64,000 nt of DNA from Fibrobacter sp. (GTDB lineage: Bacteria > Fibrobacterota > Fibrobacteria > Fibrobacterales > Fibrobacteraceae), in assembly GCA_024399015.1 (NCBI GenBank), contig JAKSIC010000003.1:124001-188000 (forward strand), read 5' to 3'. The position numbers were made by a program, and so were the translations under genes. Below, one piece after another: positions 37,897 through 44,832 of this stretch. Numbering within the stretch: position 1 is the stretch's first letter; each line of letters starts with the position of its first letter. The notes below the pieces were generated by a model, which was not told the origin of the DNA, did no database searches, and was given only the letters and a program-made list of their open reading frames with translations.

Positions 37897-38535
37897 TTAA
37901 CCTTCTTCCAAGGCTTCCTTGTATTCGTCGACGGTAGCGATGTATTCGTCGATCATGTCTTCCTTGGAATCCAGGTAGGCAAGAATCTGTTCCAGGTGTT
38001 CCTTCTGGAATACAGCCTTGAGCTGGCGGGAAGCGTGACCACGGTAGCCCCATTCCTTGAGGATTTCGTCGGTAACAACGAAGGAATCGTTCATGGAAAC
38101 AAAGCGCATGGGACCGTAGACAGCCCAGTTGTGTTCCATCTGCATGCATTCCGGTTCCTGAAGTTCCGGGTTAGCCATGAAGCGCTGGATGTGGCGGGTA
38201 CGGACGTCCTTGATCTTATCAATGCGCATGTAACCCATGATGAGGTACTTGTTGCGCATTTCGGAATCGCTCAAACCTTCGTAGCGGGTACCGAACAGGA
38301 TGTAGCGGCTCTTGGCCTTAAGGATGGCGTTCACTGCCTTCACATTATAGCAGCTCATGAGACCGTAGGTGCTGGTTTCATAGTTGGGTTCATAGAGGAA
38401 ACCCTTGCCATTTTCGTTCAACTGATCGCGTACAGGCATTTCGGATTGATGGCTAGTTTCAACATAGAGCAAGCTACCAGCTGCGTTACCGCGGTAGTCC
38501 TGCCAACCATCAAGATTAATCTGAGTCTTGGGCAT
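37897..38535 (-). CDS. hypothetical protein
   Basis: A 212-residue soluble protein without signal peptide or membrane segment; no family recognised. It has alternating alpha/beta character with segments YILFGTRYEGLSDSEMRNK, MGYMRIDKIKDV and a C-terminal acidic helix (EDMIDEYIATVDEYKEALEE). ATG 38535 is chosen over GTG 38550 because GGAAAG sits just upstream of it. It lies between the GH30 gene (convergent) and murI (same strand, 137-base gap containing a CGGACCG/CGGTCCG hairpin at 38620-38639). Codon usage matches neighbours. Confidence 0.7.
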   Translation of the reverse strand: MPKTQINLDGWQDYRGNAAGSLLYVETSHQSEMPVRDQLNENGKGFLYEPNYETSTYGLMSCYNVKAVNAILKAKSRYILFGTRYEGLSDSEMRNKYLIMGYMRIDKIKDVRTRHIQRFMANPELQEPECMQMEHNWAVYGPMRFVSMNDSFVVTDEILKEWGYRGHASRQLKAVFQKEHLEQILAYLDSKEDMIDEYIATVDEYKEALEEG

Positions 38536-38672
38536 TTTTTTACTTTCCACACAAATAAGTTAAACTTTGACAACCCCGAACCACCGCCCGGAGTCGCCCC
38601 TAGATATAAATGTTACAAGCGGACCGCGTTACCGGTCCGTCGTTTACCATATAGCAATTTACAATTTACTTA

Positions 38673-39482
38673 CTAAAAAGTCAACGACTCTGCGGAAATA
38701 TCCCGCATTCCAAACAGAAATGCGCCTTTTTCGAAGAATTTCGCGGTATCTGTGGTCAAAAAACTGGTCTTTCCATTTTTTGAAAGCCTAGCTTCAATCT
38801 CAGGATGCCTCTCCAGGTAGTCCACCGTCTTGGAGGCAACAATATCCCCCTGGAACACCAGACGGACATTTTCGGGCAGAGCCTTTCGGATGGCCTTTTC
38901 CAGAAGGGGGTAATGGGTGCAGGCCAAAAGGATGGTATCGATTTCGGGATCTTCCTTCAGCAGGGCATCCACTTCCTTTTGAACAAAGTAATCGGCGCCG
39001 GCGGACTCGCTTTCACCGTATTCCACCAACGGCACCCACATGGGGCAGGCATGCTGCGTCACCTTGAGGTTCGGGTAGAAATGGTTGATTTCAATCAGAT
39101 AGCTACCCGAAGAAACCGTACCGGCAGTAGCAAAAATCCCAATGTGGCCGCTCTTGCTAAAGGAGCCAATCTCTTCGGCGGTGGGGCGGATAATTCCCAG
39201 CACGCGACGGTCCGGGAATTCAAAAGGCAGAACCTGCTGCTGAATGCTGCGAAGGGCTCGGGCGGAAGCCGTATTGCAAGCAAGGATCACCAAAGGGCAG
39301 CCTCTCGCAAACAACTCACGGACACACTGCAACGTATAGCGGTAAATGGTTTCGTAGCTTCGGGATCCGTAGGGGGCACGGGCGTTATCGCCCAGGTACA
39401 GGTAGTCGTACTGGGGCAGGGACTTTTGCAAGTCCCTTAAAATGGTCATGCCGCCGAATCCGGAATCGAAGACGCCAATCAT
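38673..39482 (-). CDS. murI: glutamate racemase
   Basis: A 269-residue cofactor-independent racemase providing D-glutamate for peptidoglycan. Catalytic cysteines are in ACNTASA (about 70-76) and ACTHYPLL (about 180-187); the N-terminal GVFDSGFGGMTILRDL and LGDNARAPYGSRS signatures are intact. It starts 3 bases after the stop codon of the helicase/acyltransferase fusion gene, with an AAGGAAGG ribosome-binding site inside that gene, so it is co-transcribed with it. Confidence 0.95.
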   Translation of the reverse strand: MIGVFDSGFGGMTILRDLQKSLPQYDYLYLGDNARAPYGSRSYETIYRYTLQCVRELFARGCPLVILACNTASARALRSIQQQVLPFEFPDRRVLGIIRPTAEEIGSFSKSGHIGIFATAGTVSSGSYLIEINHFYPNLKVTQHACPMWVPLVEYGESESAGADYFVQKEVDALLKEDPEIDTILLACTHYPLLEKAIRKALPENVRLVFQGDIVASKTVDYLERHPEIEARLSKNGKTSFLTTDTAKFFEKGAFLFGMRDISAESLTF

Positions 39483-39485
39483 CGA

Positions 39486-41717
39486 CTATGCGCCTTCCTT
39501 TGCGGCTACAATTCTTTCACGAACCAGGTGGACCAAGTCATGCTTAGGATCCAGATTCGGGTTTTCCTTCATCATGGCGGCAACGTCAACCGGGTCAAGA
39601 ATCTTCACGTTCACCTTGAGGGGCTTGGTATCCTTACGGGCTTCCCAGACTGCAGCGGAACCGGTGATTACCAGCGGCAACAGAATGCCATTGTTTTCGT
39701 AGGCGAAACGGAATGCACCGCTCTTGAAGGGGCCAATTTGACCATTCTTGCTACGAGTACCTTCAGGGAAAATGAACACGCGAGGTGCAGTACCACATTC
39801 TGCGATAGCGGCACGGACACCAGCAGCGGCACCGCCCTTCTGACGGTCCACCAGAATGCAACCAATACGGTGCATCCAGAAATTCAAGAAGGGAATCTTG
39901 CCCAAAGACTTCTTGGCCACAAAGCCGATGGTCTTCTGGATAGAAAGGAACACGATAGGAATATCAGCAAAGGAGCTATGGTTACCCACCACGAAAACCG
40001 GGCGGCTCCAGTCCACCTTGCCCAACACAGCCTGATTTTCAATGGTCAAATCCACACGAAGCATCTTCATGCAGAAATCTGCGAAGAACTGAATGCGGTC
40101 ATCAACCCAGGCGTCAAAACCCTTCTTACCATGAAGCAACAGGCCGAAAGGCACGCGAAGCATCTGGAAACACATGTAGCCGAGAACAATGAGGCCAACT
40201 TTAAGCTTGAAAAGAATCAGCGGCATATAATATTCCGAATAAGGTTTGTCTTTTGGAAGGAACCGGGAGCGTTTAAAATTGCGCAAGACTCCTTTCCAGT
40301 ATCTTTGTTTGCAATATAGCAAAACCAGAAACGCCTCGGCCCGGGTGACCCCCACATAGTACAGCCTTCGTTCCTCTTCCAGCTGGCGCTTTCGTGCCGC
40401 ACGAGTTCCGGTGCATTCTCCCGGGGTCAGGCCCTCGGCCATACCCGCGTAATAAACCACTGCGTACTGAAGGCCTTTCGAGGCGTGGACAGTTTCCACA
40501 TGGACTCCGTTTTCCACTACAGCCTCTGCCGACTCGCCAGATTCAAGCCCCACCTCCCCTATGCTATCGCCAAACACGGGAATGCCATAATCCCGAAGGG
40601 CCATTTCATAATAGACGCGTTGGCGATTATAGCGGACCAAGATTGCAAAGTTTTTCCATTCCAAGTCGTACCCCAGGCGCAGTTCCTTAATGGAGGAAAC
40701 CACCTTTACCATTTCCTCCACAGGATTATCCGACGTCCAGACTTCCGGCTTGCGATTCTCCCGATAAAGCGGATTTCCGCCCGAGCCTTTTGAGTTCCCC
40801 GCCCGCAAGGTCTTTCGAAGATGTACCGGTTTGTTGGTAAAGATTTTGTTGGCCAGATGAAGAACGTTTGGCACCGAACGATAATTCCATTCCAGACGAA
40901 TCAGCGTACTTTGTTTAAAATCGTCCCGAAAGCGATTGATGTTCCCAATATCCGCCCCACGGAATCCATAAATAGCCTGGTCATCATCCCCCACTACAAA
41001 AAGTTGTTTTCTATCTCCCAAAAGATTTTTCACCAAGCGATACTGCGTCGGATTAATGTCCTGATATTCATCCACCAAAATTTCGTGCCACTGTTCCTGA
41101 AAATATTTTCGCGCTTCTTCAAACTTTTCCAGCAGTCGAATGGCCATATAAATCAAATCTTCGAAAACAACTTGACCCGATTCCAGAACCTCGCCACGCA
41201 ACACTTCCAGTTTCGCATTCACGGAAGACTTATAACCATCGGCGAAAAGGTCCTCTCGGGAAATTTTCATCTTCTTCAAATTCAGTTTTGCAAGTTTTTG
41301 CAGAAAGTCCTTGCCCGCACCTTCCGTAGGCACCGGCATCTTTTTGAAGCCGAGCAGTTCATAAGCGAAAACTTCCCGCAGTTCACCCGGCGCGCCATTC
41401 GGGCGACACGGTATCTTGCATTTCAGCATAAACAGCGCCAAGGAATGAAAGGTGCAAAGTCTCACCCCCGCATTAGGGAACAAAGCCTGCACGCGTTCAC
41501 GCATTTCCGCCGCAGCCTTCGCCGTAAAAGTCAATGCCAAAATTTTTTCCGGCTCCACCCCGCACAAAATCCTGTACTGGATTCGCTTTGTCAGAACCGA
41601 CGTTTTTCCGGAGCCAGCTCCCGCCAAAATTAAAAGTTGATAATCTTTTTCGTGGTCATGCAATACAGCAGCCCTCTGGTCCGGATTCAATCCGGCCAAA
41701 ATGCTTTCAGCATCCAT
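39486..41717 (-). CDS. UvrD/PcrA-like helicase (2B-less) fused to PlsC-like acyltransferase
   Basis: One uninterrupted 743-codon frame. Residues 1-497 form a superfamily 1A helicase: Q motif LNPDQRAAVL, Walker A AGAGSGKT (about 32-39), Ia LTFTAKAAAEMRER, II VDEYQD, III VVGDDDQAIYGFRGAD, IV-like EWNYRS, V VHASKGLQY and VI EEERRLYYVGVTRAE. The region between motifs IV and V is very short, so subdomain 2B is nearly absent. Residues 498-743 are a complete 1-acylglycerol-3-phosphate acyltransferase-like domain: two hydrophobic stretches, NHSSFAD (NHx4D, 579-585) and FPEGTRSK (about 650-657). An internal ATG at 40226 with GGAA 6 bases upstream could start a free 246-residue PlsC. Followed by murI after 3 bases. 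Confidence 0.85.
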   Translation of the reverse strand: MDAESILAGLNPDQRAAVLHDHEKDYQLLILAGAGSGKTSVLTKRIQYRILCGVEPEKILALTFTAKAAAEMRERVQALFPNAGVRLCTFHSLALFMLKCKIPCRPNGAPGELREVFAYELLGFKKMPVPTEGAGKDFLQKLAKLNLKKMKISREDLFADGYKSSVNAKLEVLRGEVLESGQVVFEDLIYMAIRLLEKFEEARKYFQEQWHEILVDEYQDINPTQYRLVKNLLGDRKQLFVVGDDDQAIYGFRGADIGNINRFRDDFKQSTLIRLEWNYRSVPNVLHLANKIFTNKPVHLRKTLRAGNSKGSGGNPLYRENRKPEVWTSDNPVEEMVKVVSSIKELRLGYDLEWKNFAILVRYNRQRVYYEMALRDYGIPVFGDSIGEVGLESGESAEAVVENGVHVETVHASKGLQYAVVYYAGMAEGLTPGECTGTRAARKRQLEEERRLYYVGVTRAEAFLVLLYCKQRYWKGVLRNFKRSRFLPKDKPYSEYYMPLILFKLKVGLIVLGYMCFQMLRVPFGLLLHGKKGFDAWVDDRIQFFADFCMKMLRVDLTIENQAVLGKVDWSRPVFVVGNHSSFADIPIVFLSIQKTIGFVAKKSLGKIPFLNFWMHRIGCILVDRQKGGAAAGVRAAIAECGTAPRVFIFPEGTRSKNGQIGPFKSGAFRFAYENNGILLPLVITGSAAVWEARKDTKPLKVNVKILDPVDVAAMMKENPNLDPKHDLVHLVRERIVAAKEGA

Positions 41718-41799
41718 AACGCCTCATAAGGAAAGGGGCATAGTCCCGTGGCACCTAGGCCGCGGCGAACTAGCCTCCGCTATCTAGAAAAGGAAGGAC

Positions 41800-42816
41800 T
41801 TACGCGTCCTTGCCATCAGCGTCGTTTGCTTCGGTTTTAGCCTTGGGCCCGCCATCCAGCAGGAACACAAATGCTCCGAACAAACTCAGAACAAGACTTA
41901 CAAAGTAAGCCAAAAGCTGGATCACTACAGATTCCAAGCTTGCAACGCCAGCCCTTGCGAACAAGGACTGTGCCAGCAATTCTCTGGGGCCGAAACCGCC
42001 AATGGAAATGGGCAGGGCACTGATAATTGCAACCAGCGGAATGTAGTAGAAATACCAGGATATAGAAAGGTCTACGCCTACGGCCATACCGCAGAAGTAG
42101 TGCACGAAAATTCTCAAGGCCTGCGTCACTGCAGAAAGGCAGCTAATGCAAATCCACAACTTCAAGGAACGGAACTTCTGGAAGCGGGAGAACATGTGAA
42201 TCAGGCGGCCGCTAATTTTTTCCGGCAGGAACTTCGCCATCATGGAACTGATGAAATTACCCAGGCGACGGCTGAACAAAGAAGCGAACAAGCCACAGAA
42301 GCCAACAAAGATCCAAATGGAAGGCCACATGAAGGCACGCTGCGCTTCGTCATGAACAAAGAACAAGGCGCCCATAGCGAGAGCAAACAACGTAATAAAG
42401 AAAAGTCCAAACAAACGATCGAAGAAGGTGGCGGTAAAACCTGCGCCCACAGAATCCTGACCACCCTGCATACGGATGTCGTAAATCTTCTTGGCATCAC
42501 CGCCCACATTACCCGGCATAAAGTTGTTGAAGAACAAGCCCACGTGGTAAAGTTTCAGCAAGTGGCCATAGGACAAATGAACGTCCTGCTTTTCCAGCAA
42601 CAGTTTCCACTGCATACAAGCGGTGAAGTTAGATGCAGCGAGGCAAAGCAATGCAATGACCAAAGGCAGCACGCTCTTGCCCGTGAACAAACGGTACAAG
42701 TCATCGATGCTCCAGTCCGGAGCCATCACGATGTTTCTGTACACGAAGTAGGCGGGAACAAGAGTTACCACCAACTTCAAGCAGAATACCAGGAATGACT
42801 TCAGCTGCTTATTCAT
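41800..42816 (-). CDS. lysylphosphatidylglycerol synthase TM region/YbhN-like membrane protein
   Basis: A 338-residue protein with about eight transmembrane segments of the UPF0104/AglD family. The motif FFNNFMPGNVGGDAKKIYD (about 100-118) and the later ALPISIGGFGPREL are family hallmarks. Members act as flippases or lipid/glycolipid transfer membrane proteins without the MprF synthase domain. The start ATG 42816 overlaps the stop codon of the GT4 gene (GATGAATAA), implying translational coupling. Likely works with the glycosyltransferase and methyltransferase in assembling a lipid-linked glycan. Confidence 0.87.
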   Translation of the reverse strand: MNKQLKSFLVFCLKLVVTLVPAYFVYRNIVMAPDWSIDDLYRLFTGKSVLPLVIALLCLAASNFTACMQWKLLLEKQDVHLSYGHLLKLYHVGLFFNNFMPGNVGGDAKKIYDIRMQGGQDSVGAGFTATFFDRLFGLFFITLFALAMGALFFVHDEAQRAFMWPSIWIFVGFCGLFASLFSRRLGNFISSMMAKFLPEKISGRLIHMFSRFQKFRSLKLWICISCLSAVTQALRIFVHYFCGMAVGVDLSISWYFYYIPLVAIISALPISIGGFGPRELLAQSLFARAGVASLESVVIQLLAYFVSLVLSLFGAFVFLLDGGPKAKTEANDADGKDA

Positions 42817-43951
42817 CGGCAACCTGCTCCACCTGATGTTCAATCAAAGCGTCCTGCAAAAGATTCAATGTCAGTTCTGCAGCAGTCTCCCAGCGGAACT
42901 CATCGGCATAGGACTTGGCTTCATCTTCAAGACGAGTGCGCAGATCATCATCACAATAGACGCGATCCATTTCAAAGGCGCAAGCGTCCTTGTCACCAGC
43001 AGGGAACAGCAAACCAGTTTCGCCGTTACGTACGCTATCACGAAGACCCGGAACGTCGCAAGCGATTGTGGTTGTGCCAAGCTTTGCTGCCTCCACCACT
43101 GTCAGGCCCCAGCCTTCCTTGTAGCTGGTTTGCAAAAGCGCAACGGCATTCTTCAAAAGCGCACGCTTACGTGCAGCAGACACAAAGCCCAAAAGTTCCA
43201 CACGATTCGTGAGGCCACGTTCTGCAAGCCATGCAGGAATCTGCTTCAGGAGCGGACCATCGCCAGCCACCACCAGTTTCACATCCTGATGTTGCTTGGC
43301 GAATTCTGCAAAACCTTCCAACGCAGTCCAGATACCTTTGTAACGATGCACGCGGGACAACCACAAGAAGTACGGGCAGTCAATGCCTTCGTCTTCCTCA
43401 GCCTCCACCACATCGGCAGCGCAATCATCGGAGCCGTTATAAATCACGGCAACGCGATCTTCCTCCACACCAATTTCGCAAAGTTCGCGCTTGGTGCTGG
43501 GGCTCACCACAATGAACGTCTCCTTGCGGTAGAACAGCGGAATGATTCGTTCAAAGAACCACACGCCAAAAGCCACCGGGAAAATTGCCTCGTGGAAAAT
43601 GGAACCACGCCACAGGTGATGCATCTGCACCACCACAGGTTTCTTCTGCAAGTAGGGAGTGAACAGCGGAAGCTTGTTCAAGTCCTCCACCACCACGTCA
43701 AAACCGAACTCACGATCCAGCTTGCGGATATTTGCAGCCACAGTAAGCTGGAAGAAAAGATCGCCACCCTTACGGACAACCTGAATACCATCCACCATTT
43801 CGCGAGGCTTAGCGCCAGGGAAACTTGTGGTGAACAGAACTACCTGATGGCCCATTTCGGCAATCAGGGAAAAGATTCGGTGAAGATGTTTTTCGGCACC
43901 GCCAGCGGCAGGGTGCAAACGATCTCGATAATTTACAACAAGGATTTTCAA
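42809..43951 (-). CDS. GT4-family glycosyltransferase
   Basis: A 380-residue GT-B fold enzyme. The N-terminal GGAEKHLHRIF (about 17-27), nucleotide-sugar-binding FLWLSRVHRYKGI, and the C-terminal EGWGLTVVEAAKLGT (EX7E type, about 280-294) are typical of GT4, which use UDP- or GDP-sugars with retention. The acceptor is unknown. It lies 10 bases after the methyltransferase gene and overlaps the YbhN-like gene by 8 bases, so the three genes form a tight operon. Confidence 0.92.
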   Translation of the reverse strand: MKILVVNYRDRLHPAAGGAEKHLHRIFSLIAEMGHQVVLFTTSFPGAKPREMVDGIQVVRKGGDLFFQLTVAANIRKLDREFGFDVVVEDLNKLPLFTPYLQKKPVVVQMHHLWRGSIFHEAIFPVAFGVWFFERIIPLFYRKETFIVVSPSTKRELCEIGVEEDRVAVIYNGSDDCAADVVEAEEDEGIDCPYFLWLSRVHRYKGIWTALEGFAEFAKQHQDVKLVVAGDGPLLKQIPAWLAERGLTNRVELLGFVSAARKRALLKNAVALLQTSYKEGWGLTVVEAAKLGTTTIACDVPGLRDSVRNGETGLLFPAGDKDACAFEMDRVYCDDDLRTRLEDEAKSYADEFRWETAAELTLNLLQDALIEHQVEQVADE

Positions 43952-43961
43952 GGTCTACGAC

Positions 43962-44741
43962 TTAGGGCTTACGACCCAAGACTCCAATGCAAAGCTGAGT
44001 GTAATGCATAACCGGATGTGTAGCCAAGGAATCCAAAAGACGATCCTTCAGCTTCTGATAAGCCGTACCCTGAAGGGGATACTTCGGCAACTCCACACCC
44101 ACCTTGAAACCCACTTCGCGAAGCATGCGATAGTAGAGGTTGGGGCGCATCCAGTCGCCGTATGCGTAAACGTTTTCGAAACCAGCATCGTTCATCAGCT
44201 TCTTGAGCTGAGGCATGGTGAACTGCTTTTCCCAACCGGCAAACCACTTGTCCATAGCAATCAAGATATGCTTGATTACGGTGTACGGGTGAATGGTCTG
44301 GGGAACATCGCAAAGGCAATGGCCACCATGCTTAAGGATGCGGTAGTTTTCCTTAATCAGGGGCAGAGAATCCTTGAAGTGTTCTGCAAGGCCCTGATGG
44401 AAAACCAGGTCGAAAGTACAGTCCGGGAAAGGAGCCTTGAATGCATCGCCACGAACCAGGTGGAGATTTTCCTGCAGGTTTTCCTTTTCACGGAGGGAAT
44501 TAACAATTTTCAGACTATTATCAGCAAAATCCAGGACGTAGACATCAGCACCAAGGCGGGCAAGTTCGGCACTATCGCGGCCGGTACCAGCACCAACTTC
44601 GAGAATTTTCATGCCTTCAAGCTTGAAATTCTTCTTGATAGCTTCCAAAACCGACGGAGACGAAGGATAAACCTTGTCCATATCGTTCTTTTTCTGCCAA
44701 AACTTATTCCAAACGGATTGATCGGGCTCTTTTATTGACAT
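43962..44741 (-). CDS. class I SAM-dependent methyltransferase
   Basis: A 259-residue Rossmann-fold methyltransferase with motif I ILEVGAGTGRDSAELA (about 44-59), the acidic end of strand 2 VYVLDFADN and motif IV-like FDLVFHQGLAEHF. The C-terminal half (WFAGWEKQFTMPQLKK) resembles proteins from polysaccharide clusters. Substrate unknown; context with GT4 and a flippase-like protein suggests glycan or glycolipid methylation. No Shine-Dalgarno; TATTTTTG lies 5 bases before the ATG at 44741. An upstream in-frame extension exists but is not supported. Confidence 0.88.
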   Translation of the reverse strand: MSIKEPDQSVWNKFWQKKNDMDKVYPSSPSVLEAIKKNFKLEGMKILEVGAGTGRDSAELARLGADVYVLDFADNSLKIVNSLREKENLQENLHLVRGDAFKAPFPDCTFDLVFHQGLAEHFKDSLPLIKENYRILKHGGHCLCDVPQTIHPYTVIKHILIAMDKWFAGWEKQFTMPQLKKLMNDAGFENVYAYGDWMRPNLYYRMLREVGFKVGVELPKYPLQGTAYQKLKDRLLDSLATHPVMHYTQLCIGVLGRKP

Positions 44742-44746
44742 AACGG

Positions 44747-44754
44747 CAAAAATA
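44747..44754 (-). promoter_or_regulatory. TAnnTTTG box 5 nt before methyltransferase start
   Basis: TATTTTTG-CCGTT-ATG on the minus strand, a full match to TAnnTTTG at leaderless spacing. Confidence 0.5.
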
Positions 44755-44832
44755 TACGAAAAAGAGATACCGTCCATAATCAAATAAAACAGTTAGAGGA
44801 GGCAAAATTCATGTTCAGAAGAGCAAACAGAT

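Follow-up and report, generated by a model that had tools for sequence, protein, structure and literature searches.

A minimal UvrD/PcrA-like helicase joined to a PlsC-like acyltransferase in one reading frame that appears to be held by selection across the family of Fibrobacter

Introduction

DNA unwinding and phospholipid synthesis are pathways between which we know of no link. Why, then, would a bacterium encode an enzyme of each in one open reading frame? The question is raised by a locus of Fibrobacter sp. that lies in a stretch of 64,000 nucleotides (contig JAKSIC010000003.1, positions 124,001 to 188,000), referred to here as the window. On the minus strand, from 41717 to 39486, a joined frame of 743 codons encodes a helicase (residues 1-488) followed by a PlsC-like acyltransferase (residues 498-743). 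The original prediction, made from the DNA letters, had described a single open frame of this kind, and the open reading frame, the Pfam matches and the relatives confirmed both its coordinates and its description.

Architecture of the fusion gene

The locus comprises the following features, listed with the evidence for each.

41800..42843, minus strand: gene for a membrane protein of the LPG_synthase_TM family, the upstream neighbour (Pfam, synteny)
39486..41717, minus strand: whole fusion gene, 743 codons, 84.1 kDa (open reading frame, mass calculation)
40254..41717, minus strand: SF1A helicase half, residues 1-488, with subdomains 1A, 1B and 2A only (Pfam; fold Z of about 32 to PcrA/UvrD; spacing from NYRS to motif V)
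40227..40253, minus strand: variable linker, residues 489-497, never a stop (alignments of relatives)
40224..40226, minus strand: ATG codon of residue M498, a conserved internal start of the putative former separate plsC; its Shine-Dalgarno sequence (SD) is strong in sister genera and weak in this one
39486..40226, minus strand: PlsC-like 1-acyl-glycerol-3-phosphate acyltransferase half, residues 498-743 (Pfam; profile match to PDB 5kym; fold Z 24.9)
38673..39482, minus strand: glutamate racemase family (murI-like) gene, a neighbour outside the fusion, 3 bases downstream (Pfam, synteny)

Within the one protein, Pfam recognizes UvrD-helicase (residues 10-268, E 2.5e-62), UvrD_C (389-471, E 7.9e-28) and, in the C-terminal part, Acyltransferase (PF01553; 571-684, E 1.9e-22, with 79.9 bits against a cut-off of 23). 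The fusion has a calculated mass of 84.1 kDa, and a fragment that starts at M498 would have 27.3 kDa.

Distribution of the fusion

A profile of the fusion was searched in 168 genomes of the window's phylum. The window's family (f1) is represented by 111 genomes from 11 genera, and in 108 of them the frame runs without a stop across the junction; of the remaining three, two have a gene that is cut off by the end of its contig ahead of the junction (G155, G162) and one lacks it (G157). Every junction-spanning copy in the home phylum was found at a profile E of 1e-170 or below. The search of related genomes that the original prediction had proposed as a check thus recovered the joined architecture. 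The prediction had also considered that a sequencing error might have joined two genes, or that the helicase had recently lost its stop codon. Neither idea held: the same joined frame occurs in essentially every family relative, which excludes chance and sequencing error, and the fusion is family-wide and held by selection. With 108 of 111 genomes of 11 genera joined, and with strong purifying selection on both halves (see below), an error of sequencing or assembly or a recent stop loss is hardly credible as the source of this gene.

The fusion gene belongs to a same-strand cluster (window 38673-44783) of genes for a methyltransferase, a GT4 glycosyltransferase, the LPG_synthase_TM protein, the fusion and the murI-like racemase, and a gene for a sigma-70 type factor adjoins it. 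This order recurs throughout the window's genus and in several of its sister genera; around loci L110-L119 it differs, and the gene is still fused there. Close by, at window 37897-38550 on the minus strand, lies a gene for a 217-residue protein that has no Pfam match; in those relatives that were found to have it, identity is 68-95%.

At a profile E of 1e-80, none of 775 sampled genomes of three phyla contained the fusion (395 from the phylum of G168, with L203 as Bacteroidota record; 298 from that of G169, with L184 as Gemmatimonadaceae record; and 82 from that of G170, with L222, KSB1), a result that shows little because the search had no positive control there. A scan of genome contigs returned 80 UvrD/PcrA-like genes, none with a PlsC gene right beside it; PlsC matches were near any of these 80 genes at two loci only, at about 2.2 kb upstream and about 2.5 kb downstream. 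The open-access literature searched yielded no paper on a helicase-PlsC fusion. Both domain families are known, and as far as could be tested their combination and the dual-start arrangement are new.

Selection on the junction

In 11 close pairs of relatives dN/dS is 0.03-0.14 for both halves of the gene, values which indicate that both are under strong purifying selection. The linker between them (residues 488-497) is 10-25 codons long among relatives, and its dN/dS of about 0.5 or more in most pairs from the window's genus is near-neutral in amino acids. On a tree of 45 genomes it has undergone at least 408 substitutions. Stops make up 6.8% of its possible single changes, and by a parsimony estimate that treats all changes as equally likely about 28 would be expected if they were tolerated; none was seen. 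Divided by group, 12 stops are expected for the window's genus and 15 for the other genera, with zero seen in both. The free change of the linker, combined with the absence of about 28 expected stops, argues strongly that the joined frame is kept by selection. A stop might also be absent for a different reason, namely that it would lower PlsC output, the physical join being irrelevant.

Origin of the fusion

In genomes from outside the window's family the helicase stands alone, at a length of about 500 residues, and lacks the 2B subdomain as well. Such stand-alone, 2B-less UvrD-like helicases of ~500 residues are widespread in the phylum (e.g. L081-L099, L031, L035, L038), beside longer UvrD/PcrA-like genes. 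Next to the stand-alone short helicases lie genes for 4-alpha-glucanotransferase, AIR-synthase-like and SPOR proteins, and next to copies fused elsewhere an aconitase gene; no common theme emerges from these neighbours. One genus of the same class (g5) has the genes for the helicase and PlsC side by side: in six of its genomes they share a few bases, for example GTGA or ATGA. Stop/start overlaps of this type are typical of translational coupling.

In the trees, the fused PlsC groups with the PlsC of g5 and with some stand-alone ones, and it is separated with 100/100 support from the second PlsC that occurs in Fibrobacter genomes, the window's own included. The fused helicases form one clade (100/100), which the helicase of the sister family f2 adjoins on a long branch and with unsure placement. 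Only the other PlsC type was found in f2, and in f5 the matching type lies on another contig; the adjacency of helicase and plsC may thus be ancestral or may have arisen twice. Overlapping stop/start genes sit in different frames, and a fusion derived from such a pair would therefore need a frame change and not the loss of a stop alone.

An internal start at residue 498

All 25 aligned genomes from the window's genus have ATG as the codon of residue 498, although the preceding residues vary, and so do 30 loci from the profile search of the phylum, which partly come from the same genomes as the alignment. In 20 genomes of ten other genera, ATG, GTG or TTG lies within one codon of residue 498, so that a start codon is found at most one codon from this position in 45 of 45 aligned genomes. 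SD pairing of -5 kcal/mol or better precedes it in 20 of 20 genomes of these sister genera, versus 15% of the internal ATGs of the same genes; all of these figures refer to related genomes and are not independent trials. Eight of these genomes all form the SD core, GGAG, from a Glu codon and the G that ends the codon before it, as do only 2-9% of the Glu codons in those eight genes. The residue before this Glu varies (Pro, Ser, Leu) while GGAG is constant.

The window's genus presents a different picture. Here the SD at M498 is weak, with 20% at -5 or better against a background of 17%, and no SD above background was found at this site; the gene's own first start has an SD in 72%. On these sequence comparisons, the ten sister genera have a strong and selected internal SD. 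Since the SD is strong there and at background level here, free PlsC is likely made in most of the family, and in the window's genus its amount is probably small or nil. A Met-Pro at the head of a helix, kept for a structural reason, is a possible explanation for the conserved residue in that genus. The original prediction that the gene may yield both a fusion and a free enzyme from the ATG at 40226 has thus gained a conserved start and a selected SD in ten sister genera, but with a background-level SD it is least certain in the window's own genus.

These patterns bear on two rival explanations. According to the main one, the join serves expression only: PlsC would have lost an efficient start of its own and need translation through the helicase frame, the domains would work independently and the helicase would gain nothing from the membrane. 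The weak SD at M498 in the window's genus, which would make PlsC dependent on readthrough from the helicase, agrees with this, as does a linker that is short and variable. However, the ten genera with a strong, selected internal SD could make PlsC alone, and yet about 15 linker stops are expected and none is seen. The absence of stops in the genera with strong starts weakens this explanation, and we regard it as unlikely. According to the second rival, the fusion is cut after translation, or mostly free PlsC is made from the internal start, so that the joined protein hardly exists. The conserved internal start with its SD in the sister genera would fit such a scheme, but selection against linker stops is hard to explain by it, and in alignments of relatives the hypervariable linker shows no conserved motif for cleavage; we consider it very improbable.

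The helicase half

All SF1A motifs are present in the N-terminal half: Q (N11/Q14), I (GAGSGKT), Ia, II (DEYQD), III (GDDDQ), IV, V and VI. Like the motifs of the PlsC half, they are invariant or almost so in alignments of 25 same-genus and 30 family-wide sequences; the original prediction had likewise listed all motifs from Q to VI. A pseudogene or a decaying helicase half was rejected on account of the low dN/dS and these invariant motifs. The stretch from NYRS to the TVHASKG motif (motif V) measures only 105-131 residues, compared with 270-321 in PcrA/UvrD proteins, and the 2B subdomain, of which the prediction had seen hardly anything, is therefore missing; a short variable loop at about residues 381-404 takes its place. 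By its motifs and its matches to PF00580 and PF13361, this half is a minimal, 2B-less SF1A helicase of the UvrD/PcrA-like type. The hallmark of such helicases is ATP-driven 3'-5' translocation and unwinding.

The AlphaFold2 model of this half matches PcrA/UvrD with a Z of 31.9 over 435 residues. In comparison with PcrA, UvrD and Rep (PDB 1pjr, 2is1, 1uaa), subdomains 1A, 1B and 2A and all motifs are shared (Z about 30-32; 34-35% identity over 422-436 residues). The fusion differs from these enzymes in lacking 2B (roughly 150 residues fewer) and the C-terminal tail, and in the acyltransferase fused to it. An assignment to PcrA, UvrD or Rep proper was rejected, as the 2B insertion in 2A is missing and the scores are far below the respective NCBIfam cut-offs. 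Rep that lacks 2B is active as a monomeric helicase, and deletion of 2B activates the monomer (review PMC13238157). By analogy, the naturally 2B-less helicase is plausibly active as a monomer.

GajB of the Gabija defence system has a similarly short UvrD-like core, accounts for the best PADLOC matches and is also represented by matching chains in the PDB. Unlike in Gabija, however, no GajA occurs among the annotated neighbours of the fusion, and the gene is kept in every examined genome of the window's genus, which is not the pattern of a defence system. Gabija was rejected, the PADLOC matches to GajB reflecting the generic UvrD core.

At one spot of the 1B region, after about residue 103, four genomes from the genus have roughly 15-60 additional codons inserted in frame (L023:3380-3555 and the corresponding site of L012, L024 and L025). 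The insert in L023 holds a short repeat with a core of about 24 bases that has many dispersed copies in genomes G020 and G006 and fewer in G019 and G001, and was not found in the window's genome.

The PlsC half and the membrane

The acyltransferase half had been predicted to be complete, and the PF01553 match and the conserved catalytic motifs NHx4D (residues 579-585) and FPEGTR (650-655) bear this out. With 88.1 bits it stays below the curated cut-off of TIGR00530 (102.95), and for this reason it is called LPAAT-like. AlphaFold2, run on 30 family sequences, gave a model with a mean pLDDT of 83 and a long helix at residues 500-552. This coincides with the hydrophobic N-terminal helices of the PlsC half (about residues 499-552), where the most hydrophobic 19-residue window begins at 499. 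In the fold alignment of the predicted model, residues 495-743 align with chain residues 1-241 of 5kym, the PlsC of Thermotoga maritima, with a Z of 24.9 over 233 residues. The likeness to PlsC/LPAAT (PF01553) thus extends over the full length (233 of 241 residues), including both motifs and the N-terminal helices, which in this model have the membrane-dipping form of Thermotoga PlsC. What sets the protein apart from the Thermotoga enzyme is a whole helicase that extends the N-terminus and a start codon inside a larger frame.

The first helix of Thermotoga PlsC dips into the membrane and comes out again on the side where it went in (review PMC6688108), and a cytosolic helicase ahead of PlsC is thus topologically possible. 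The suggestion that the acyltransferase tethers the helicase to the membrane is plausible on the predicted fold and by analogy with the Thermotoga enzyme (PMC6688108). Among the proteins listed for the cell envelope of F. succinogenes S85 in a proteome study is the acyltransferase FSU_0064, which could be either the fused or the separate enzyme (PMC6851124). PlsC domains within larger proteins are also found in fusions of acyl-ACP synthetase and acyltransferase (NCBIfam PRK08633, PRK06814). In those, however, both partners are lipid enzymes, whereas the partner in Fibrobacter is a DNA motor.

A model for the helicase-PlsC protein

The reading that we favour, and consider probable, is that an overlapping gene pair gave rise to a selected fusion with a membrane-anchored helicase-PlsC protein as the main product and, in most genera, free PlsC from the old start as a second one. 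A gene for a minimal helicase and an overlapping plsC neighbour would have become one frame in the ancestor of the family, and selection would have held this frame ever since. The main product would be a bifunctional protein whose PlsC part may work at the inner membrane face and acylate lysophosphatidic acid there. The N-terminal helices of PlsC would dip into the membrane, and the helicase would stay cytosolic but anchored at the inner membrane, as the fold suggests. In most genera, ribosomes may also initiate inside the gene at the old plsC start with its SD and produce free PlsC.

The function of this coupling we can only infer. It is conceivable, and we propose it tentatively, that the protein is a membrane-anchored SF1A motor, free of autoinhibition and coupled to membrane synthesis, with the internal start setting the balance between anchored and free PlsC. 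Near the membrane, the anchored helicase might work on DNA that is nascent, damaged or incoming.

Significance

Two enzymes of separate pathways share one selected frame across a bacterial family and are overlapping neighbours in g5. The locus would illustrate clearly how two overlapping genes turn into a fusion in which the start signal of the second gene is retained; living relatives still show the unfused arrangement. It also offers a natural example of an SF1A helicase that lacks the autoinhibitory 2B subdomain, and with it a functional connection between the growth of the membrane and the processing of DNA can be tested directly. If the proposed reading is true, a family of bacteria physically ties a DNA helicase to phospholipid synthesis, and the activity or location of this helicase would be coupled to new membrane.
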